A stretch of DNA of 36,826 nucleotides from a bacterium HR35. GTDB taxonomy: Bacteria > Patescibacteriota > Minisyncoccia > UBA6257 > HR35. The stretch spans positions 115,264-152,089 of the forward strand of contig BEIL01000002.1 of assembly GCA_002898235.1 (NCBI GenBank), written 5' to 3'. The notes beneath the pieces are model-generated. The model saw only the letters and a list, made by a program, of their open reading frames with translations. It was not told the DNA's origin and did no database searches. Below, one piece after another: positions 14,019-27,603 of the stretch (positions are counted from its first letter, which is position 1; each line of letters opens with the position of its first letter). The position numbers were made by a program, and so were the translations under genes.

Positions 14019-15419
14019 ATGAAAAAAATCGAAGATATTAAACCTAAAAGTATCGATTTTTTTCCAATTAAAAAGAAAAATTTCTTAAAAGTTTCCTTTT
14101 CCAATTTTTGGAGATACTTTCTAGTTTTAATTTTTCTTTTAGCTCTTAATTTTGCTTCGGCTCCTAACTCCTTTACCCAAGTGACTAATACTAAAAAATT
14201 ACCACCAGAGCTTGAGGCTAAAAAACAATCACTTGAGGCTCAACTTCAAGAAGTTTTGAAAGAAATTGAAAAATATAAGGCTGAGATTAATAAAATTAGA
14301 AGCCAAAAAAGAAGTATTCAGCAAGAAATAAATTTAGTTAATTCTCAAATTAAAAAAACTGAATTAGAAATTAAAGCTATTAATATTCAAATTGAAAATT
14401 TAAATAGAAAAATAGCTCAAACTAAAAAATCAATCACCTTAACTGAAGAAAAAATTCAAAAATCAAAAGAATATTTAGTAGTCTTAATTAGGTTTTATTA
14501 TCAACTTAGACAAAGAAATGTAATTGAAGTTTTTTTAGCTGAAGCTAAACTTTCTGATTATTTCAGTCGTTTTTATTATTTAGCTAAAGTTCAAGAAAAT
14601 ATAAGTAACGAGATTGATAACTTAAAAGAACTTAATGAAACCCTAAATAAACAAAAATCTAAACTGGAAGAAGAATTGAAGGTTCAAAACAATCTTTTAA
14701 CTTTAGCTAAAATTAAATATCAAGAACTTCAAGAATTAAAAGCAGAAAAAAATCAACTTTTAGCTCAGGCACAAAAACTTGAAAGAGAGTATAATAAAAA
14801 ACTCCAAGAATCAGAAAGAACTGCTGCTCAAATTAGACAAGAAATTTATAAATTAGCTGGTGGAGCTGGTCCAATTACTTTTGGAGAAGCTTATGAATAT
14901 GCTAAATTAGTTGAAAAATATACTGGAGTTAGACCAGCTTTTCTTTTAGCTATCCTTCATTATGAAACCAAAATAGGGCAAAATGTAGGTACCTGTCATT
15001 ATAAAGATGCTATGAAACCTTCAGAAAGGCCAATTTTTGAACAATTAGTAAGTGAATTAGGTTTAGATCCTAATAAAATGCCAGTTTCTTGTAAGCCATG
15101 GTATGGTTGGGGTGGAGCAATGGGACCAGCTCAATTTATGCCCTCTACTTGGCTTAAATACAAAGAAAGAATAGCTAAAATAACAGGTAACAATCCGCCT
15201 TCACCTTGGAATATTCTTGATTCTTTTATAGCTGCCGGTCTTTATTTAAAAGATTTAGGAGCTGATATTGGAACTTATCAAGCTGAATGGAAAGCAGCAA
15301 TGATGTATTTTGCTGGTTCTAACTGGGATAATCCTTCTTTAAGATTTTATGGAGATGATGTTATGTCAATCGCTCAAAGATTTGAAGAAGATATCAGGAT
15401 TTTGGAAAGAGGAAAGTAA
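14019..15419 (+). CDS. Secreted coiled-coil protein with MltB-like lytic transglycosylase domain
   Basis: 466 residues. A cytoplasmic N-terminal stretch (1-30) leads to one hydrophobic helix (31-48, possibly a cleaved signal), a long charged coiled coil (about 62-275, EnvC/CwlO-like), then an SLT-type domain (about 285-460). The catalytic Glu is likely E316 in I-L-H-Y-E-T-K-I-G, and G-A-M-G-P-A-Q-F-M-P-S-T-W (366-378) is the MltB substrate-cleft motif. It should cut glycan strands of peptidoglycan outside the membrane, with the coiled coil perhaps controlling activity as in divisome hydrolase regulators. The same SLT arrangement recurs in the 1210-residue protein at 23273-26905. It follows bL25 by 13 bases and overlaps the convergent debranching gene by 54 bases. 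Confidence 0.87.
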   Translation: MKKIEDIKPKSIDFFPIKKKNFLKVSFSNFWRYFLVLIFLLALNFASAPNSFTQVTNTKKLPPELEAKKQSLEAQLQEVLKEIEKYKAEINKIRSQKRSIQQEINLVNSQIKKTELEIKAINIQIENLNRKIAQTKKSITLTEEKIQKSKEYLVVLIRFYYQLRQRNVIEVFLAEAKLSDYFSRFYYLAKVQENISNEIDNLKELNETLNKQKSKLEEELKVQNNLLTLAKIKYQELQELKAEKNQLLAQAQKLEREYNKKLQESERTAAQIRQEIYKLAGGAGPITFGEAYEYAKLVEKYTGVRPAFLLAILHYETKIGQNVGTCHYKDAMKPSERPIFEQLVSELGLDPNKMPVSCKPWYGWGGAMGPAQFMPSTWLKYKERIAKITGNNPPSPWNILDSFIAAGLYLKDLGADIGTYQAEWKAAMMYFAGSNWDNPSLRFYGDDVMSIAQRFEEDIRILERGK

Positions 15420-16961
15420 AAGTAAAAGAGAAGACATTGACCAAGTTTGAATTAAAGAACCTTCGCTTTTTCTTTCTTTAGCTGAACTCAATTCACTTGA
15501 AAAACCCAAAACTCCATCTTTCAAAAGGTCAGTTAAAGAAGCTTCAATTATTTTTTGAATAGTAAATTTGTATTTTTTTTCATTTAAATCTTTTAAAATT
15601 AAAGCTAAGAGATTATTTAAATAATACCAAGAATCGCCAGAATGGTAACTTAAAGGATTTTCGCCAGTGTGTTGGCTTATAAATTTATCAGAATTAATTT
15701 TTTGGGTAGCAACTCCTCCCCAAGGCAAATAATAATCAACTAAAAATCTATCAAATATCTTTAACCATTCTTTTTTAGAGAAAACTTCTGGAAGGAGAAA
15801 ATAAACTAAAATTAAATTTACATCATACTCTTCTTTAATTTTTTGTTTAAGAAGCTTTAAATAAAAATCTGCTTTTTCTTTATAAATTTTTTCGAATTTG
15901 GCCAATTTTCTTAAGGCTTTTAAATAAAGAGTATAAATTTCTAAAGATTCATTTTTTTCTAAAGTATCCATCCAAGTTGCCTTTGCTGGTAATTTAAGTA
16001 AACCGTTTTTATCTAAAAAGTTTTCTTCCCAAAAACGAAGATATTTTTTAAAAACAACTGAATAATAAGCTAAATCTTCTTCATCGATATTTAAAATTAT
16101 TAATGGCAAAGTATCAGCCGCTAAAATTCCATTTTCTTTATTAAATTGCCATTTGTTTTCTAAATTAAAAAGATAATTAGAAAAAATGCTTTTTTTGTCC
16201 TTGAGATAATCTTTTAAAAGATAAAGAGATAAAAGTTCATCTCGAAACCAATTTTCAAAAAACCAAGGAAAGCCAGCGGGAAGATAATTTTTTAAAATTA
16301 ACGAATTAAGACGAGTTAAAATAAAATCAAAGATTTTATTATTAGTTAGATTAAAGATTTCTCCAGAAAAGCAAGCTGTTTCTAAGATTTTTATTTTTAG
16401 ACAATTAGTTTTTGAAGTTAACTTACCATAACTCCACCATTCTTTTAAAGAAGAATTTCTTTTAGAATCAAAATCTAAAAAATTTCTAAACCAACCAGTC
16501 TGAAAATTTAAAGGAGCAAAAGATTCAACAAGAATTTCCATTATAAGTTGGTTATCAAAATAGAAAAAAAAATGATAGGTTGAGGAATTTAATTTTTCTT
16601 CTTTAATAAATCTTAAAAAAGGATTATCATTAAAAATAAAATTAGCATCAAAAGAAAGACTAATTTCTTCAAGGTTAGCAGCTTTTATTTCTAAACAATT
16701 TTCTTCTTTGAGCGAAAGATAAATTTGATTTCTATCTGTTTCCCAAAAGATTTCAGTTGGAGAGAAAATGGTTATTTCTTTTGGCAAAGAAGAAATTTCT
16801 AAAGAATCTAAAAAGCGAAAAGGCTGATTTTTAAAATAAAAACCTCCAAAAAATCTGCTTTTTTCTTTACTTAAAATTAACCATAAATTTTTGTTTTTCA
16901 AAAATAACTTATCACTTAAAGATTCTCCTGAAAAATTAAGTTCTAAGTAATTTAGCTTCAT
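15366..16961 (-). CDS. Glycogen debranching enzyme-like glycoside hydrolase (GH133/amylo-1,6-glucosidase C-terminal type)
   Basis: 531 residues. The N-terminal half (1-200) is beta-rich and divergent; the C-terminal half is an (alpha/alpha)6 barrel with debranching-enzyme motifs: F-P-W-F...W-F-R-D-E (231-242), A-T-W-M-D-T (328-333; Asp332 a candidate catalytic acid), S-Y-H-S-G-D-S-W (438-445) and G-F-S-S-E-L-S (486-492; Glu490 candidate), then Q-T-W-S-M-S. It would hydrolyse alpha-1,6 branch points of an alpha-glucan. It overlaps the GT3 synthase upstream by 4 bases, supporting the role. Family assignment rests on these motifs; substrate not proven. The overlap of 54 bases with the convergent transglycosylase is one of the largest in the window. 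Confidence 0.78.
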   Translation of the reverse strand: MKLNYLELNFSGESLSDKLFLKNKNLWLILSKEKSRFFGGFYFKNQPFRFLDSLEISSLPKEITIFSPTEIFWETDRNQIYLSLKEENCLEIKAANLEEISLSFDANFIFNDNPFLRFIKEEKLNSSTYHFFFYFDNQLIMEILVESFAPLNFQTGWFRNFLDFDSKRNSSLKEWWSYGKLTSKTNCLKIKILETACFSGEIFNLTNNKIFDFILTRLNSLILKNYLPAGFPWFFENWFRDELLSLYLLKDYLKDKKSIFSNYLFNLENKWQFNKENGILAADTLPLIILNIDEEDLAYYSVVFKKYLRFWEENFLDKNGLLKLPAKATWMDTLEKNESLEIYTLYLKALRKLAKFEKIYKEKADFYLKLLKQKIKEEYDVNLILVYFLLPEVFSKKEWLKIFDRFLVDYYLPWGGVATQKINSDKFISQHTGENPLSYHSGDSWYYLNNLLALILKDLNEKKYKFTIQKIIEASLTDLLKDGVLGFSSELSSAKERKSEGSLIQTWSMSSLLLLLSSFQNPDIFFKSLSD

Positions 16962-18733
16962 TTATTTTTTTTAAAAATAGTATTATAAAGTTCTAAATAA
17001 TTTTTAATCATTTCCTCCCAATTAAAATGAGAAGCTAAAACTCTGGCTTCGTATTTATTTTGAATTCTTTCAATCCTTTCCATTTTAATAATCCGAAGCA
17101 TTAAGTCGGCTAAGTCTTGAATAACTTCTTCGTCTCGTCTATTCTTTCTTTTTAAAATCCATAAACCAGGATAATCTCTTTTAAGCAATCTTTTTTCCTC
17201 AAGATAATTAGCAAAACCAGTTAAATCAGAAGTAATTGCCATCACTCCAGCTGCCAATGTTTCTAAGGGAGTGTAACCCCAAGGTTCATAATAAGAAGGA
17301 AAAACACCCAAATGGCAACCATTAATAGCATCATAATAATTTAAATTTAAAAAGCCATCAGCTGAATGAAGATAAACTGGATAGAGAATTACTTTAACCT
17401 TATCCTCTTCTCGATTAAGCAATCCTTCATTAGTTAAAATTCTAACAAAATCATTATTTTCTGGTAAAAGATGAGTAGATAAAGGAGCCCTATCTGACTT
17501 TTTTATCTGATTCAAAATTCTTTGAATTTCTAATATTTCTTCTTTAGAAAAGAGGTCATCAGTTTCAACTTGAAATTTTTGATGAATAACAGCATGGAGA
17601 AGTCGCGCATCAATCTCATTTTTTAAATTATTTAAATACTCTTCTAAACCTCGATAAACCATTAAATTATTTAAAACTTCATGATTAACGTCTTTAATTT
17701 CATCAGGAACAAAAATAAAGAAAAAAATGTTTTTTTCAGAATTTTCGCTTTTGAGTTTTTTATTAAGTAAACCTAAAGCTTTCAATAAAACATCAAAGCC
17801 TTTATTTCTAATTTCTTTTCTTCCGCTCGTAAAAAAAATAAAGCTATTTTTTACTGGACAACTATATTTGTAATAAGGAGAAAAAAAGTAGAGAAGAAAC
17901 TCTAAAATGGCTTGTTTATTTTTTCGATGTTGACTGGAGATTTCTTCAAAAGTAGGAAAACGAGAAAGATCAAATCCGTTAGGAAGAAGAAAATCAACCT
18001 TTCTTTTAAGAAAAGCTTCCGCCTCATCTTTAACTACTGAGCTGACAGTAACAAAATAATCAGCTTTTTCAGCTGAATTTTTTTCAACTAAATGTTTTGC
18101 TTCAATTTGATATTGATAAGCTAAATTTAGAGGGTCGAGAGTTGTTAGTTTTTCCCAAAAGTTAATATTGCTTTCAGCTAAACTTCTTCCTAAAACAGTT
18201 GCATGAGTCATAAAAATTTTAATTAAAGGAAAATTTAAAGAAAAAAGCAAAGCAAAACCTGAAAGCCATTCATGAAAATGAACTAAAGAATTTTTAAATT
18301 CCTCTCTTTTAGTTAATTCTTCAAAAAAATCACTAACTGCTCTTGACCAAGCTAAAGGATAATTATAGTCATCACCCGTACGAAGGCTATCGATTCCGAA
18401 TTTAACCCAAAGTTCGTATTTTAAGTAATTGACTTCAGAAAGATATTTTTGAAAATCAATCAAAAATACTTGTGGCCTACCTTCAATTAACCATTCTCCA
18501 TAATAAACCATTACTCCTTTACTTTGAAGAGAACTAATTATTTCTCCAAATAAAGAAGGTGGTTGGAGAAAATGAAATTCATTTTCTGTTTTCGCTCCCA
18601 AATAAGGTCCAATTAAAAAATAATCATTACCATATTTTTCTTTAATGTACTTAGCTTTACTCGATAAAACTGTATATATCCCACCAACCTTATTAGCTAC
18701 TTCCCAGCTAACTTCGAATAGATATTTTGACAT
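16958..18733 (-). CDS. Glycogen synthase, GT3 (eukaryotic/GYS) type
   Basis: 591 residues. The N-terminus S-W-E-V-A-N-K-V-G-G-I-Y-T-V-L (9-23) is the GT3 signature seen in yeast and animal glycogen synthases. Further GT3 landmarks are V-H-F-H-E-W (near 150), T-H-A-T-V-L-G-R, S-G-R-K-E-I-R-N-K-G-F-D-V (binding the nucleotide sugar) and P-S-Y-Y-E-P-W-G-Y-T-P-L-E (acceptor/donor Glu motif). GT3 enzymes elongate glycogen, normally from UDP-glucose, unlike the ADP-glucose GT5 GlgA of most bacteria. The regulatory C-terminal phosphorylation tail of animal enzymes is absent. Overlaps GH57 by 26 bases and the debranching enzyme by 4. Confidence 0.92.
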   Translation of the reverse strand: MSKYLFEVSWEVANKVGGIYTVLSSKAKYIKEKYGNDYFLIGPYLGAKTENEFHFLQPPSLFGEIISSLQSKGVMVYYGEWLIEGRPQVFLIDFQKYLSEVNYLKYELWVKFGIDSLRTGDDYNYPLAWSRAVSDFFEELTKREEFKNSLVHFHEWLSGFALLFSLNFPLIKIFMTHATVLGRSLAESNINFWEKLTTLDPLNLAYQYQIEAKHLVEKNSAEKADYFVTVSSVVKDEAEAFLKRKVDFLLPNGFDLSRFPTFEEISSQHRKNKQAILEFLLYFFSPYYKYSCPVKNSFIFFTSGRKEIRNKGFDVLLKALGLLNKKLKSENSEKNIFFFIFVPDEIKDVNHEVLNNLMVYRGLEEYLNNLKNEIDARLLHAVIHQKFQVETDDLFSKEEILEIQRILNQIKKSDRAPLSTHLLPENNDFVRILTNEGLLNREEDKVKVILYPVYLHSADGFLNLNYYDAINGCHLGVFPSYYEPWGYTPLETLAAGVMAITSDLTGFANYLEEKRLLKRDYPGLWILKRKNRRDEEVIQDLADLMLRIIKMERIERIQNKYEARVLASHFNWEEMIKNYLELYNTIFKKNK

Positions 18734-19901
18734 TTGATTGTTTGATTCTTAATTTAAAATCTTCTAAAACATTTCTAAAATTCAAATAAGCATCAAAAGG
18801 AGTTTCATAAGGACTAAAATATTTATGAACATCTCCGTCAGCAAACCATTTAGTGCACATATAATAAAAATGATCAGCAGTTTGAAGTTTTCGCCAAATT
18901 TCTTTTAAACTAAAAGGAACTTCTTTCTCCAAAGAAAAAAGCATTTCTAAACATTCTTTTTGCATTTCATTTCCTAACCAAGCAGTTAAATCTCTTTCCG
19001 TATCTGCCCAGGTAATTGGTTTTGGGGAAGAATAGATACCTCTAATTGGATATTTTTCAATTGCTTCACTAGGCAAAGAAAATTCTAAATCTTTTCTTTT
19101 AAGAACTTCAAAGGGCAATGCTTTTAAAAATTCAAAAATCCCAGTTTCTGACCATTGATGCTCACCAAAAGTTTCAAAATCCATAAATAAATTAATTACT
19201 TCTCCATTACCGTTATAAGCCTCTAACCAACTAGCAAATTTATCAGCTGTTAATGGCCATTCTTCCCACCAGCGAGCAGAAAAACGAAAACTAATATCAT
19301 CAGAAAGTTTGAAATGCCTCAAAAGCAAAATTATATTTTTTCCAGGATCTTCATAAAGAAAAGTAGGCGAGCGCCATCCTAAAATCCAAGGTACTCCTTC
19401 AGCTAACATACCTTTAAATCCTAATTCTTTGACTATTTCAGCTAAACCATCAAAATAAATTAATTCTGTATTAGCAAAGATCTGCGGTTCAAAATCAAAT
19501 AAATTTTTTACTAATTTTTTATGCTTAATAACTTGATTTTTGAATTCATTTAAGGAATAAAGGCAAGAAAGAGAATGATAATAATTTTCTCCGATAAATT
19601 CAACCGAGCCAGTTTTAGCTAAAACTTGAAGAAGTTTAATAATTTCTGGATGGTATTTAGTTAAACTTTCAATTAAAATTCCAGTAATTCCTAAAGAAAA
19701 TTTAAACTTTCCATTTGTTTTTTTGATTAGCTCTAAGAGAATTTCTAAAGTTGGCAGATAACATTTATTAACAACTCTTTCTAAATAATATTTATTTCTT
19801 TCTTCATCGAAATAATTATCATCCTCACCGATATCAAAAACGGTATAATGTTTCAATCTTTGTGGCTGATGAACTTTAAAATAAAAAATTATTGAAGGCA
19901 T
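18708..19901 (-). CDS. Glycoside hydrolase family 57 protein (alpha-amylase/glucanotransferase type)
   Basis: 397 residues. GH57 conserved regions are visible: F-K-V-H-Q-P-Q (8-14), F-I-G-E-N-Y-Y-H-S (102-110), F-A-N-T-E146-L-I-Y (nucleophile Glu) and F-M-D241-F-E-T-F-G-E-H-Q (acid/base Asp). The length fits compact GH57 amylases rather than the longer (over 500-residue) branching enzymes. It would hydrolyse or rearrange alpha-1,4-glucan in the cytoplasm, as no signal peptide is present. Sandwiched between GT3 and GT4 genes with overlaps on both sides (26 and 13 bases). Confidence 0.9.
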   Translation of the reverse strand: MPSIIFYFKVHQPQRLKHYTVFDIGEDDNYFDEERNKYYLERVVNKCYLPTLEILLELIKKTNGKFKFSLGITGILIESLTKYHPEIIKLLQVLAKTGSVEFIGENYYHSLSCLYSLNEFKNQVIKHKKLVKNLFDFEPQIFANTELIYFDGLAEIVKELGFKGMLAEGVPWILGWRSPTFLYEDPGKNIILLLRHFKLSDDISFRFSARWWEEWPLTADKFASWLEAYNGNGEVINLFMDFETFGEHQWSETGIFEFLKALPFEVLKRKDLEFSLPSEAIEKYPIRGIYSSPKPITWADTERDLTAWLGNEMQKECLEMLFSLEKEVPFSLKEIWRKLQTADHFYYMCTKWFADGDVHKYFSPYETPFDAYLNFRNVLEDFKLRIKQSNVKISIRS

Positions 19902-21049
19902 TTACTTTTAATTACTGATTGATAAAAATTAAGAAGTTGGTTGGCTGTTTTTTGCCAATCAAATTTGTTTTTAGCTTCTAAATGGATAGCTTTTCGATAC
20001 TCTTCCTTCATTTTATTATATCTTAAAATGCCTACGATTTTATTAGCCATTTCTTTAACATCCCAAAAATTAAATTTCATCATTAAACTTAAATAATTGC
20101 CTACTCCTGTTTGATAAGAAGTGATTACTGGTAAATAAAAATTTATTCCTTCTAAAGGAACTAAGCCAAAAGGATCAGCTACTGAAGGAACAACTAAAAT
20201 GTCAGCTAAAGAATAAACGCCCCAAAGCTCTTTTTCTCTTAAAAAATTAGTGAACAAAACATTTTCCCAAGAATTAAGCTCATAAGTTAATTTAACTAAC
20301 TCGGAAAACATATCGCCTGAACCAACAAAGACATACTTTATCCTCGGAAAAAATTTTTTGACATAAGGTAGTGTTCTTAAAAGATAATCTGGTCCCTTTT
20401 GAAGAACTAATCGACCTACAAAAAGAACAATTTTGTAATCATTAGCTTTTAAATAATTTAAGTAATTAGGAACTAAACACTCTTTTTGACTCCAATCAAA
20501 ACCATTCGGCAAAACAAATAATTTTTCTTTAGGTATTTTATAAACATTAATTAAGACTTCTTTAGTTAAATCACTAACTGGCAAAAGAAAATCAGCTTGA
20601 GAAAAATATTCTTTTTCTATTTGATAAATAATCGGATTAGGATTATTACCTGTTCTTTCAATTTCCGTTGAGTGAACATGAATTAAAGAGGGCACTTTAA
20701 AATAATTGCTTAAAAAAATAACAGCTGGTCCAGAAAACCAATCATGACCATGAACAATATCCGGTTTTTCTTTATAAACCTCTAAAATTCTTTGACCATA
20801 ACTAAGAATTAATTCTAAAATTTCTCGATTAACACTTAAATGAAAACGAGAATAATATCCAGTTATTTTTGAAATTTTATTGGAAGCGAAAATAACTTTA
20901 AAAGGAAGATTGTTTAGAGGCAAATCATAAGGAAGAACAAAAGTTAAATTAATTTTTTTAGATAGTTCTTTAGCCAAAAAGAAACTAGCAACGCCTAACC
21001 CACCACTATTGAAAGGTGGCAACTCCCACCCTATCATTAAAACTTTCAT
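19889..21049 (-). CDS. GT4 family glycosyltransferase
   Basis: 386 residues from ATG 21049, where M-K-V-L-M-I-G-W-E-L-P-P-F-N-S-G-G-L-G begins the GT-B Rossmann fold exactly as in glycogen synthase/GT4 proteins. A TTG at 21085 would add 12 basic residues and is less likely. The C-terminal domain has V-G-R-L-V-L-Q-K-G-P-D-Y-L-L and P-S-V-A-D-P-F-G-L-V-P-L-E, the GT4 E-x7-E motif with the first Glu changed to Asp. In the alpha-glucan cluster it could prime or elongate glucan, or make another glycan; the sugar donor cannot be read from sequence. Confidence 0.87.
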   Translation of the reverse strand: MKVLMIGWELPPFNSGGLGVASFFLAKELSKKINLTFVLPYDLPLNNLPFKVIFASNKISKITGYYSRFHLSVNREILELILSYGQRILEVYKEKPDIVHGHDWFSGPAVIFLSNYFKVPSLIHVHSTEIERTGNNPNPIIYQIEKEYFSQADFLLPVSDLTKEVLINVYKIPKEKLFVLPNGFDWSQKECLVPNYLNYLKANDYKIVLFVGRLVLQKGPDYLLRTLPYVKKFFPRIKYVFVGSGDMFSELVKLTYELNSWENVLFTNFLREKELWGVYSLADILVVPSVADPFGLVPLEGINFYLPVITSYQTGVGNYLSLMMKFNFWDVKEMANKIVGILRYNKMKEEYRKAIHLEAKNKFDWQKTANQLLNFYQSVIKSKCLQ

Positions 21050-21091
21050 TATTTTAAATTTTAATTTTTTCCTTTTTAAAAACAACTAAAT

Positions 21092-23164: not shown

Positions 23165-23276
23165 TCTTCATGAAATTTTAAATTCAATTGGTAAAATTTT
23201 TTTTGGCGTTTTTGTTTTTATTTTTTCTTTATATTCTATTATTAAAAATTTTATTATTAAATTTTTAAAGCTCTAA
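23157..23276 (+). CDS. Possible 39-residue membrane peptide
   Basis: Begins in ATGAATAA, overlapping the stop of the preceding small ORF by 8 bases, and ends 4 bases inside the convergent large gene. One membrane helix (about 13-30, G-K-I-F-F-G-V-F-V-F-I-F-S-L) followed by a basic end. The coupling and the absence of other content in the 250-base gap support it, but short AT-rich frames easily look hydrophobic, so confidence is low. Confidence 0.35.
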   Translation: MNNLHEILNSIGKIFFGVFVFIFSLYSIIKNFIIKFLKL

Positions 23277-26200
23277 GAAGGACGAATAGCATCACCTCCA
23301 TAAATTTCAAAAAGATAATCTTTTTCTGGACAAATCTCAAAGAAACTCAAATCATTATTTTCAAGCAAAAAGTAATAATTTTTATTTGCTTCAAATTGAG
23401 GAAGATTATCCCAACCAGGTAAATAATAATAAACTAGATATTTATTATTACAAATAGTTTTTACTCCCAGACTATTTGCTTTTTTTAGTTTCAATTCTTG
23501 AAATTCAGTTTCATTTTCTTTTTTGTATTTTAAAGTTACTTCTTCTAAATTTTCATTTGAGGAAATAAATCTAAATATAAGCGGAAGATAATCCCTCTCA
23601 AAATTTTTAAAACTTAAAGTCTGTCCCGCTTGATTTTTATTAATAACAATTTCTCTTAAAGGTATTTTAGTAGTAGATAATAATCGACCACCTTCATCTG
23701 CTTTAACATTTTTTATTTCCATCTCGGGATCTATCTTTTCCCAAGAGAGAGGCGTTGAGGAAACCAAAGTAATTGTTTCTCCTTCTATTTCTTTAGTTAA
23801 TTCTAATGAAAAAAGTAAACCTTCTAAATTTTGAAGAAAAATATCAAAATCAACCTGGTATGATTTAAGAGGATAAAAAGCAAACTTTTCTAATGGTCCT
23901 AAGGATTCGTAATCAGAAGAAAGTTGGTTTAAGCTAATAGTAGTTGAAGAAAAATATAAAGCCGGAGAGATAAAATTAAAACGAAGATTAAAATTATGAT
24001 AATTTATTTTTCCGCTTTTAATTAAATTATTATTTTCATCAAAAATTTTATAATCAGTTTCTTCCTTCACAATAAAGCCTCTAAAATTTAAAAAATTTTT
24101 AGGTAAAGGTTTAAAAATTAAAGAATTTTCCGGTTGAGGATCTCTATATTCAAAACTTTCTTTAATAAGATAATTGCCGTTTTCATCAAAAGCTAAATAA
24201 CCATTACCCCAAGAGTTTAAATCAATATCTAAATTATTGGCTTGCCGATCCAATTTTTTTCTTTCTATGCTTTTTCCTTCTGGTGGATTATTCAAACAGT
24301 TTTGATAATTATCGACTTCTCCCCAACAAAGATAATCAACAATTTCGTTTTTTTCATTTAAAAGGGCTAAACCATTATTAAAAGTTAAACCATAAAGAGT
24401 TGACGACGGATAAAGATAATCAAAACTAAAATTGCTATTTAAATTGCAAGTTTCTTTATTGCCTATTAGAAAGTATGAAAATGGAGGAATAACCGCTTTA
24501 ATTTTAGTAGGAGCCAAAAGTTTATTTTCCGAAAAATTGCCGTTTTTATTTATTTTAACCAATGACCAACCGCTAATATTAACAGGATAATCATTAGGAT
24601 TGTAAAGCTCGATAAATTCTCCCTGATTATTATTAATCCCTTCAATCACCATTACTTCTGAAATAAATACTTTTCCTGAAGTAGCGTTTTCAAGATTATC
24701 TAGGGAATGATCTATTAAATTGCAAGAAACAAGAATGTTTTGAGAGCAGCCTAAATCTTGTAAATTAATTTCTGAAGTAGTAGCTAAATAATTTTCTTCA
24801 TCAACCCTGTCTTTTAAATAAAAATTTATTCTTAATAGAAAATTACAATTTTCAATGGGGAAATTAAGTTTTCTTTCTTCACTGTTGAAATTAGCTTGAA
24901 GTGTTGAAGTTGAAAAACTAGATGATGAAGATTCTAATTTAATTTCATAAAAATAATTAGTAGAAGAAACATTTAAATTTGGTTCTTTGAAAGAAATCAC
25001 TAAATTATTTATCTCTGTTGATGTTTCAATAGAAATTCTAAAATTTTCTATTTTTACTTGTGAAAGATCAATAAAGTCCTCTCTTGGTATTCTTGATGGT
25101 GAATTAGAATTTTCAGGATTAGCTTTTCTTAGCCAAAAATCTTGTGAGTTATTATTAGTATCTTGTAAATTTTTTCTTTGAATTGTCCTATTATTGTCTG
25201 CGTTAGTCTGCGTTATAATAAATGGTTCTGCTTCATATTGATAAATTTTTTCTTTATCATCTCCATAGCCAACTAAATCTGATATTTCTCCATTTGGTTT
25301 TCTTAGAACAATAGTATTATTTTTAGAGATTGAATAGCTTTTAGCATAAGTTAAGTCTGCTTGGTATTTATCTTTATATTCTTCAGCTGAGATTAAAAAG
25401 AAGGAATTAGGTTTAATTTTACCTTGAAATTTTGATTGAGGAATTAAAGTATAAAGATTAGGAGTTGAAGTTGAATTATTGTCTTTTGAAGAATATTTTT
25501 CTAATTTCCAGCAAGTTAAGTCAATTTCTTCATTTGTTGGATTGTAAAGTTCAATATATTCATCTTGAGTGCTTGAAGGTGTTTCATATTGAATTTCTGA
25601 AATTAAAATATTTGGATATTGTTTGTTTTTATAATTTTCACAAGGATCTTTTGGTTGTTGAGGTTGATTATTAGCTGTTCTTATATCAGAGCCTGAAGTT
25701 TTAATCGGAGTAGTTGGCCGTTGATTAATTTTTAATTCAGATAATAAAGATTCAAGGTTTAAATTGGATTCTTTTTTATTTTCTTCTGTGGATGTTGATT
25801 TTGAAAATTGATTTGTTATAGTTGGTGTTGATTTTAAGTTTAAATTTTTATTTAAGGATTTAGTAACTTCTGGTTTTTTCCTTTCTTCTTGATAGCTAAA
25901 AGATAAGATTTCTTCTTTGGAAGTTTGAGAAGAATTGTTTTGGAAATCTTTAGCGTTATTATTTTGATTATTTGATTTTAAAACAACTTTTAGTTTATAG
26001 TTAGAAGGTGGCAAATAATTTTGTCCTAAGTAAAGAGGTGTAGATTCAACATAACCTAAGCTTACTAGATTTAATTCAATAAATTGTTTCTGTTTTTCAA
26101 GATTGGCTAATTTTATTTCTTTTTGTTTAGCAACTTCTGTTTTAAGACATTCTTTCTTTTTCCTAATTGACCAATTATTTTCTGTACATTGAAGGAATCT

Positions 26201-26905
26201 ATCTTTAATTACCGAAAGAGCACAAGAATAATCATTATTTGAACAATCATAAACAAAAATAGTATCTTGAAGTATTTGCTCCCAGTCTTGCTTAGCATCT
26301 TTATATTTTTCAAGTTCATCTTTGTTGCAATTATAACTACAAACTGCTTGTTCTTCGTTTTTATTGACTCCATCTTTAACTAACTTTAAAGCAGCAGCAT
26401 AAAGTGAATCTTCTAAATTCCATGGATTTTTGTTTTTAAGCTCAGGGTATAATATCCAAGTTGTTGGTTGAAATTGAGTATATCCAATTCCGAAATCAGG
26501 AGCAATAGGGACTTTATTAATATCTAAACCTAAATTTTTAGTTATTTTTTCTAACGTTTTGTATTGTTCATTACACCAATCTCGTCTTTCGTCAATTGTA
26601 TATTCTTGTTTCTTTCTATTATAACAAGCCACTAAAAATCTACCATCGATATTATGAGTTTCTTTCCTCCAAAAACACATATTAACACATCTGTTTATAT
26701 TCTTTTCTTTAGATCCTAAATTTACTCCCAAATTTTCTCCAAAACTGCTTTCTCTTTCAATTATTGATAGAATAACAGTTGGCGTATTTAGCCCTGATAA
26801 CTTATAAGCTTTATCTATAGCATTAATTAAAGTTTTCCATTCTAAAGCTAAAACTAAACTAAATAAGAAAAATAAAAGCAATATTGTTGCTCTTATTTTA
26901 CTCAT
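23273..26905 (-). CDS. Large surface protein: SLT-like domain plus two lamin-tail domains
   Basis: 1210 residues. Signal peptide 1-20 (hydrophobic, ending A-L-E). Residues about 25-220 form a lytic-transglycosylase-like domain: E50/E52 in S-I-I-E-R-E-S-S-F-G and G-I-G-Y-T-Q-F-Q-P-T-T-W (139-150), with many cysteines (C73, C77, C94, C111, C189, C193) suggesting disulfides outside the cell. A Ser/Thr/Asn-rich linker (310-425) follows. Lamin-tail domain 1 is about 431-605 (I-L-I-S-E-I-Q-Y, E-Y-I-E-L-Y-N-P-T) and domain 2 about 744-890 (V-F-I-S-E-V-M, E-F-I-E-L-Y-N-P-N). The remainder is beta-rich. LTDs are common in secreted bacterial nucleases and surface proteins and may bind DNA or glycans. 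It is translationally coupled (ATGA) to the membrane gene upstream. Confidence 0.85.
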   Translation of the reverse strand: MSKIRATILLLFFLFSLVLALEWKTLINAIDKAYKLSGLNTPTVILSIIERESSFGENLGVNLGSKEKNINRCVNMCFWRKETHNIDGRFLVACYNRKKQEYTIDERRDWCNEQYKTLEKITKNLGLDINKVPIAPDFGIGYTQFQPTTWILYPELKNKNPWNLEDSLYAAALKLVKDGVNKNEEQAVCSYNCNKDELEKYKDAKQDWEQILQDTIFVYDCSNNDYSCALSVIKDRFLQCTENNWSIRKKKECLKTEVAKQKEIKLANLEKQKQFIELNLVSLGYVESTPLYLGQNYLPPSNYKLKVVLKSNNQNNNAKDFQNNSSQTSKEEILSFSYQEERKKPEVTKSLNKNLNLKSTPTITNQFSKSTSTEENKKESNLNLESLLSELKINQRPTTPIKTSGSDIRTANNQPQQPKDPCENYKNKQYPNILISEIQYETPSSTQDEYIELYNPTNEEIDLTCWKLEKYSSKDNNSTSTPNLYTLIPQSKFQGKIKPNSFFLISAEEYKDKYQADLTYAKSYSISKNNTIVLRKPNGEISDLVGYGDDKEKIYQYEAEPFIITQTNADNNRTIQRKNLQDTNNNSQDFWLRKANPENSNSPSRIPREDFIDLSQVKIENFRISIETSTEINNLVISFKEPNLNVSSTNYFYEIKLESSSSSFSTSTLQANFNSEERKLNFPIENCNFLLRINFYLKDRVDEENYLATTSEINLQDLGCSQNILVSCNLIDHSLDNLENATSGKVFISEVMVIEGINNNQGEFIELYNPNDYPVNISGWSLVKINKNGNFSENKLLAPTKIKAVIPPFSYFLIGNKETCNLNSNFSFDYLYPSSTLYGLTFNNGLALLNEKNEIVDYLCWGEVDNYQNCLNNPPEGKSIERKKLDRQANNLDIDLNSWGNGYLAFDENGNYLIKESFEYRDPQPENSLIFKPLPKNFLNFRGFIVKEETDYKIFDENNNLIKSGKINYHNFNLRFNFISPALYFSSTTISLNQLSSDYESLGPLEKFAFYPLKSYQVDFDIFLQNLEGLLFSLELTKEIEGETITLVSSTPLSWEKIDPEMEIKNVKADEGGRLLSTTKIPLREIVINKNQAGQTLSFKNFERDYLPLIFRFISSNENLEEVTLKYKKENETEFQELKLKKANSLGVKTICNNKYLVYYYLPGWDNLPQFEANKNYYFLLENNDLSFFEICPEKDYLFEIYGGDAIRPS

Positions 26906-27603
26906 TTGTTTATAAATTTAAAGGTTTTTACATAATCTTCATAAAGTTTTGCTGAAACAATATAGATCATATATAACTTGTTATTAATTATAGTTTTATA
27001 AAAATAGGATGCGTCTGGATCTTCTGGATCTTCTTCAGGAAGTAATACTTTAATAAATTCGACCCCGTTGATTACTATTTTTTGGGTTGTTGATTTAGTT
27101 AGATCTTGATAATATTCTTCTATTTCGTCTTTCCAATATTCATCAGTAGGATAGTAAATATAAATAAAAATTGCCGTCCAATATCTAGTAGGAGCATATA
27201 CACTTATTGCTTTTAAGGAATCAAAATTTAAAGAACTCGCGTCTCTACTCCTATTCAATATCAACTCTTTAGGTATTTCTATTTGATAACCTTCAGTATG
27301 ATTGATGACTAATTTTCTGTCTCTTTTGTTTATTATTTCTACTCCTTCAAGTTGGATGTCGGTTGAGGTTGAAAAGTATGATTCAAAATCTAAGGCTCTT
27401 GATAATTTTTCGGCATATTCTTCTTCATTGAATTTCTTTGTTTTTTCTATTTCCTGTTCTATTTGTTGAAGCTCTTGTTTAGTTTGCTCAATTTTTTTAT
27501 TAATTGTTACCTTTTGATAGAGAAAATAACCTCCAGCTGATAAAGTGATAAGTAAAACTATGGAAAAAAATAATAAAATTTTTTTAATTACTGCCCAACT
27601 CAT
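26902..27603 (-). CDS. Membrane-anchored protein with coiled coil, unknown function
   Basis: 233 residues. One N-terminal membrane helix (about 7-30), a charged coiled coil (35-68), then a mixed alpha/beta domain ending with a Y-K-T-I-I-N-N-K-L-Y-M-I-Y-I-V strand pattern typical of small extracytoplasmic alpha/beta domains. It precedes and overlaps the giant SLT/LTD protein by 4 bases, so the two are likely made together and may act in the same envelope structure. A purine-rich GGAAAGGA sits immediately before the ATG, too close for an ideal Shine-Dalgarno. No family recognised. Confidence 0.7.
   Translation of the reverse strand: MSWAVIKKILLFFSIVLLITLSAGGYFLYQKVTINKKIEQTKQELQQIEQEIEKTKKFNEEEYAEKLSRALDFESYFSTSTDIQLEGVEIINKRDRKLVINHTEGYQIEIPKELILNRSRDASSLNFDSLKAISVYAPTRYWTAIFIYIYYPTDEYWKDEIEEYYQDLTKSTTQKIVINGVEFIKVLLPEEDPEDPDASYFYKTIINNKLYMIYIVSAKLYEDYVKTFKFINK

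Follow-up and report, generated by a model that had tools for sequence, protein, structure and literature searches.

How do ultrasmall epibionts open their hosts or feed on them? The question is raised by a locus of bacterium HR35 (Patescibacteriota; Minisyncoccia; UBA6257), a tiny and probably host-attached organism with a genome of about 596 kb in 5 contigs (G000). The window analysed, i.e. the whole stretch of 36,826 nucleotides (contig BEIL01000002.1 of assembly GCA_002898235.1, positions 115,264 to 152,089, forward strand), encodes a 1210-residue protein, P0001, directly after a small putative membrane protein, P0002. P0001 combines a transglycosylase-like (SLT) head with two lamin-tail domains (LTDs). 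We give a probability of about 0.55 to the reading that P0001 is a modular secreted lytic effector and P0002 a head-specific membrane partner, whose most likely task is to keep the enzyme in check in the producer itself. Head and partner form an exchangeable unit on a shared lamin-tail chassis, which goes beyond what the original prediction, made from this DNA by itself, could see.

The chassis was searched for with a profile (A1) of the LTD1-LTD2 core in 244 genomes of the order, and was present in 133 of them and in 12 of the 17 genomes of the family. The heads and upstream genes of 73 fetched loci were sorted. The N-terminal head was zinc-phospholipase-C-like (the commonest), alpha/beta-hydrolase-like, of a HYGDWE type, of the SLT type, or missing. 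One phospholipase-C-like head passes PF00882, the H, D, H ligand-type positions of these heads are 98-100 % conserved, and the hydrolase-like heads have HSQG in 8 of 8 cases. Of 208 genomes sampled across the class, 62 had phospholipase-C-like heads; the source genome had none. Headless, membrane-anchored chassis without a partner gene occur within the same family, in G002, G010, G016 (L038, L033, L036), G011 and G012. On these comparisons, the relatives have the LTD chassis in common and the head is interchangeable. The HYGDWE head (HYGDWERVDVY), which we take to be Vps62-like, is present at two loci, L109 and L124; at L124 a multi-membrane-spanning protein is encoded upstream, where others have a single-anchor partner. 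At L037:4900-6204 (-), downstream of a phospholipase-headed protein, a second lamin-tail-like protein of 434 residues with a C-terminal membrane segment is encoded.

The type of upstream gene followed the type of head. A matching partner was present at all testable loci with phospholipase (43/43), hydrolase (8/8) and SLT heads (2/2), there were no cross-pairs, and headless chassis had no partners at all. At 43 loci, the partner of the phospholipase heads is characterised by a transmembrane segment and the motif TYGGKTPQETL. Six phospholipase heads have no partner; all of these lie at contig ends, and in five the 5' side is truncated. For the partner models, 8 of the 43 phospholipase and 6 of the 8 hydrolase loci were used, so that the phospholipase pairing is to a large part independent of the training; at the class level, both testable loci agreed. 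In 38 phospholipase loci the distances of head and partner were correlated (r = 0.81, Mantel p = 0.0005), compared to r = 0.11 for head and LTD2 and r = 0.12 for partner and LTD2; co-divergence was also computed over 43 loci. Three syntenic comparisons (L078/L081, L089/L102 and L112/L114, the last inside one genus) differed in head and partner type with the chassis and flanks kept. Judged from these data, the partner is specific to the enzymatic head and moves with it, as is expected of an effector and its immunity protein.

The same was seen outside the lamin-tail family. When P0002 alone was used as the query, a full-length homologue (27 % identity, E 6.9e-12) was found in a genome of another family (G231, family f24). 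Directly downstream of it lies a gene for a 1087-residue SLT-headed protein that has delta-60-type repeats, Ig domains and no LTD, and the neighbours of this pair differ from those in the source genome. As the SLT head occurs there with the P0002 homologue and without the lamin tail, P0002 belongs to the SLT head and not to the LTD body. A role of P0002 as the anchor of the chassis was rejected, since headless chassis lack a partner and an LTD-less one has it.

Is the head of P0001 a transglycosylase? The Pfam match to SLT_2 (residues 27-197, E 0.0013) reached 18.4 bits, below the cut-off of 24.3, and a sequence search with P0001 against the PDB gave no match. The homologous head of G231 passes the same cut-off with 32.7 bits and also matches NCBIfam MltB models, below their cut-offs. 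A two-sequence profile matched MltB and Slt35 in the PDB weakly (E 0.02-0.09), and the matches covered the block around the catalytic Glu as well as the QFxP block. For the predicted structure of the head, which is of low confidence (pLDDT 63), the five best Foldseek matches were MltB, Slt35 and SltB1 structures (probability 1.00, E 0.02-0.05). The weak SLT_2 call for P0001 is thus rescued by the independent agreement of the G231 homologue, the PDB profile and Foldseek, and the head looks like a divergent MltB-type transglycosylase with predicted activity. Loss of the catalytic Glu in relatives would have spoken against this, but the residue is kept in all three genera in which it is readable, as E52 in P0001, within ETGFG in G231 (L145) and within EKESGF in a damaged copy of the nearest named relative, Candidatus Parcubacteria bacterium KatS3mg096 (G001). 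The source genome has two VKOR genes, making disulfide formation possible.

Features of the P0002/P0001 gene pair (positions in the window; residues counted in P0001 unless P0002 is named)
Feature	Position	Strand	Basis
P0002, partner gene, 233 aa	26902..27603	-	ORF call
P0001, SLT-headed lamin-tail protein, 1210 aa	23273..26905	-	ORF call and Pfam
ATGA stop/start overlap of P0002 and P0001, 4 bp	26902..26905	-	sequence
Putative Sec signal peptide, aa 1-21, MSKIRATILLLFFLFSLVLAL	26843..26905	-	hydropathy only
SLT_2/MltB-like head, aa 22-260, 10 Cys	26126..26842	-	Pfam, profile, predicted structure
Predicted catalytic Glu52, ERESSFG motif	26750..26752	-	alignment with MltB 'gvETgyG', G231 QETGFG, P0003 YETKIG
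GYTQFQPTTW motif, aa 141-150 (MltB G-x-QFMPS block)	26456..26485	-	alignment
Linker, aa 261-420, second half Ser/Thr/Asn-rich	25646..26125	-	sequence
Lamin-tail domain 1, aa 428-548	25262..25624	-	Pfam and LTD profile
Lamin-tail domain 2, about aa 738-890	24236..24694	-	Pfam and LTD profile
Orphan C-terminal tail, aa 943-1210	23276..24079	-	sequence

Most of the architecture given in the original prediction was borne out. The two open reading frames overlap as described, the cysteine-rich inserts correspond to 10 Cys between residues 73 and 253, the Ser/Thr/Asn-rich linker covers about residues 300-420, and both LTDs are clear Pfam matches (PF00932, E 2.6e-30, 105 bits, above the cut-off). The transglycosylase-type head, the export-type N-termini and the two-gene unit also stood. 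P0001 has a hydrophobic, signal-peptide-like start and no further membrane segment according to hydropathy, and P0002 a single, N-terminal membrane segment; the words "surface", "membrane-anchored" and "secreted" have this N-terminal hydropathy as their sole basis. A Shine-Dalgarno sequence with a good match, GGAAAGGA, lies close 5' of the P0002 start, and none was seen before the P0001 start on inspection of the sequence. Together with the ATGA overlap, this makes it likely that translation of P0001 is coupled to that of P0002.

P0002 consists of a signal anchor (about residues 3-30), a coiled coil (about 31-71) and a C-terminal domain (about 82-231), which is likely PsbP/DcrB-like. The best Foldseek matches of its predicted structure were DcrB, PsbP and Tsi3, with EagT6 also listed (E 0.01-0.3), and a distant profile match (E 2.4e-7) connects P0002 with a protein that passes PF18933 (PsbP_2). 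It is the only P0002-type gene in the source genome.

The other end of P0001 is also variable. In KatS3mg096 the pair is present in two copies 393 kb apart (L031:6755-10593 and L032:6831-10702), which are 98 % identical across 3.87 kb, from the start codon of the partner to a sharp breakpoint in the C-terminal region. Beyond this the tails differ, and that of P0001, whose match to KatS3mg096 stops at residue 942, resembles neither. When all open reading frames of the fetched chassis loci were searched at E<=1, the tail of P0001 had no relative, and it has no Pfam family match; from the sequence, a beta-rich domain in it can be guessed. A toxin within the tail was considered and rejected, there being no family match and no relative. 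The DNA identity between the source genome and KatS3mg096 is 81-88 % in the blocks of the pair and 68-72 % in core genes, and a genome of the same genus (G007) has neither pair nor chassis. The higher similarity of the pair and its absence from G007 suggest horizontal exchange. The differences between the two KatS3mg096 copies are packed in about 600 bp, from the 3' half of the partner to the 5' half of the SLT gene (45 mismatches, 32 gap columns), and outside this part the copies hardly differ.

In the favoured reading, the pair works as follows. P0001 would be exported by Sec, and its MltB-type head would cut the glycan strands of peptidoglycan, with the two LTDs acting as a stalk and the exchangeable C-terminal tip possibly selecting the target. 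P0002, made first through translational coupling, would be held in the producer membrane facing outward, where it most likely would bind and restrain the head in the manner of an immunity protein or inhibitor and shield the producer wall. The enzyme would thereby act on the attached host or a neighbour cell. Computed support comes from domain order, the kept Glu, pairing, co-divergence, swaps, pairing on an unrelated chassis and tail switching; that the head is active, that it is aimed at a host, that P0001 lies at the surface and that P0002 inhibits the head are inferences. The earlier idea of a lytic, wall-opening role against the host is partly supported and plausible, and it agrees with what has been proposed for Patescibacteria (PMC11665869, PMC8080830).

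The partner could alternatively be a membrane-anchored steric chaperone or folding factor of the head and not an inhibitor, in the way that lipase-specific foldases serve some secreted lipases. The strict presence of one partner per head, its N-terminal anchor and its translation before the head would fit this, as would the finding of three enzyme classes each with its own partner, and EagT6, an effector chaperone of related fold, is in the Foldseek list of P0002. However, the inhibitor Tsi3 is in that list as well, the coiled-coil SLT paralogue P0003 of the same genome has no P0002-type gene with it, and neither the lysozyme/SLT fold nor alpha/beta-hydrolases usually need help in folding. We consider a foldase unlikely. 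It is likewise unlikely, in our estimate, that the head serves to remodel the peptidoglycan of the producer, for insertion of the giant protein, division or pilus assembly, with the partner as anchor or regulator. Lytic transglycosylases mostly act on their own wall, and an FtsW/RodA-type gene (Pfam) lies on the same strand 256 bp downstream of the pair. Yet the same-genus G007 retains the FtsW/RodA-MiaA block without the pair, the pair in G231 has different neighbours, phospholipase-C-like and hydrolase heads on the same chassis misfit wall remodelling, and P0003 is present as a separate conserved SLT protein. The original prediction had also proposed DNA binding or uptake, with the lamin-tail domains capturing DNA and the SLT head opening its path. 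LTDs do occur in extracellular nucleases too, and the LTD part of P0001 has a weak NCBIfam match to ExeM. This part of the prediction found no support, because most relatives have lipid-directed heads on the same chassis; the pair is not linked to any nuclease or competence gene, and DNA uptake is very improbable.

Several points count against the effector and immunity reading, as does the own-wall alternative itself. Only G000, G001 and G231 are known to have the SLT-headed form, with no further SLT heads among 384 genomes of the class, in which just coiled-coil SLT proteins like P0003 were found. Both KatS3mg096 copies are frameshifted in the partner/SLT part, through either decay or assembly error. 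The P0002 model is poor (pLDDT 53) and none of its Foldseek matches passes 0.001; moreover, the PsbP/DcrB fold serves many functions including that of chaperones, and does not distinguish between immunity protein, foldase and anchor. No delivery route other than Sec export was found, although no search was aimed at a type VI apparatus, and the case is computational.

The effector and immunity reading draws on a likeness to Tse3-Tsi3 in fold and arrangement, which is an analogy and not evidence of homology. Searches of the PDB gave no Tse3 or Tsi3 sequence match for the pair. Tse3 is a muramidase, its catalytic domain resembles that of SLT enzymes, and Tsi3 confers immunity to it; Mog1p and PsbP have been published as structural neighbours of Tsi3 (PMC3792639). 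In both systems a secreted SLT/lysozyme-like wall-cutting enzyme is encoded with an envelope partner, whereas P0001 and P0002 have Sec-type N-termini, a giant LTD chassis and the partner gene first, and inhibition by P0002 is putative. Polymorphic toxins (CDI, Rhs, MafB) likewise combine a constant body with an exchangeable toxic module, a matching partner and sharp recombination breakpoints. Their classical order, a C-terminal toxin with a downstream immunity gene, is not the one found here: the enzyme is N-terminal and the partner upstream at every testable locus, and the variable C-terminal part has no known activity. With MltB/Slt35 (PF13406, GH103) the head shares the catalytic-Glu motif and the QFxPxxW block, but it is divergent, has Cys-rich inserts, scores below family cut-offs and is fused to LTDs. 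The PF00882-LTD fusions of Paceibacteria/Minisyncoccia have the same chassis, an export-type N-terminus and an upstream membrane-anchored partner; they differ in a phospholipid rather than glycan target, and in a partner without detectable sequence similarity to P0002.

Damage to host envelopes has been proposed for transglycosylases and phospholipases of Patescibacteria (PMC11665869, PMC8080830). Paceibacteria that parasitise methanogens, which exist in culture, show strong expression of extracellular proteins (PMC10936435). Here transglycosylases and phospholipases appear as alternative heads within a single family of giant exported proteins, each head tied to its own membrane partner, an arrangement suggestive of an exchangeable set of tools for attack on other cells. 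No description of LTD-chassis enzymes with head-specific partners was found in the searchable open-access literature. It is a tentative possibility that Paceibacteria/Minisyncoccia have a previously undescribed, class-wide combinatorial attack system, in which modules of an enzyme (phospholipase C, alpha/beta-hydrolase or transglycosylase) with its immunity protein replace one another as a whole on the LTD chassis at conserved loci, independently exchanged C-terminal tips set the host range and the head type reports the envelope chemistry of the host. The finding puts names to the genes, predicts which residues are catalytic and may offer a genomic marker for the type of envelope that the host has.

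PADLOC made no defence-system calls, and the viral contigs searched contained no relatives of the pair. An operon of the pair with the FtsW/RodA-type gene was rejected, as the linkage is not kept in G007 or G231. P0003 (window 14019-15419, +) is a coiled-coil and SLT_2 protein of 466 residues with relatives in the family and class, and its neighbour in some class genomes likewise looks SLT-like. A glycogen block occupies window positions 15366-21085, with genes for a GDE_C amylo-glucosidase, a PF05693-type glycogen synthase and a GH57 protein and a GT4 gene.
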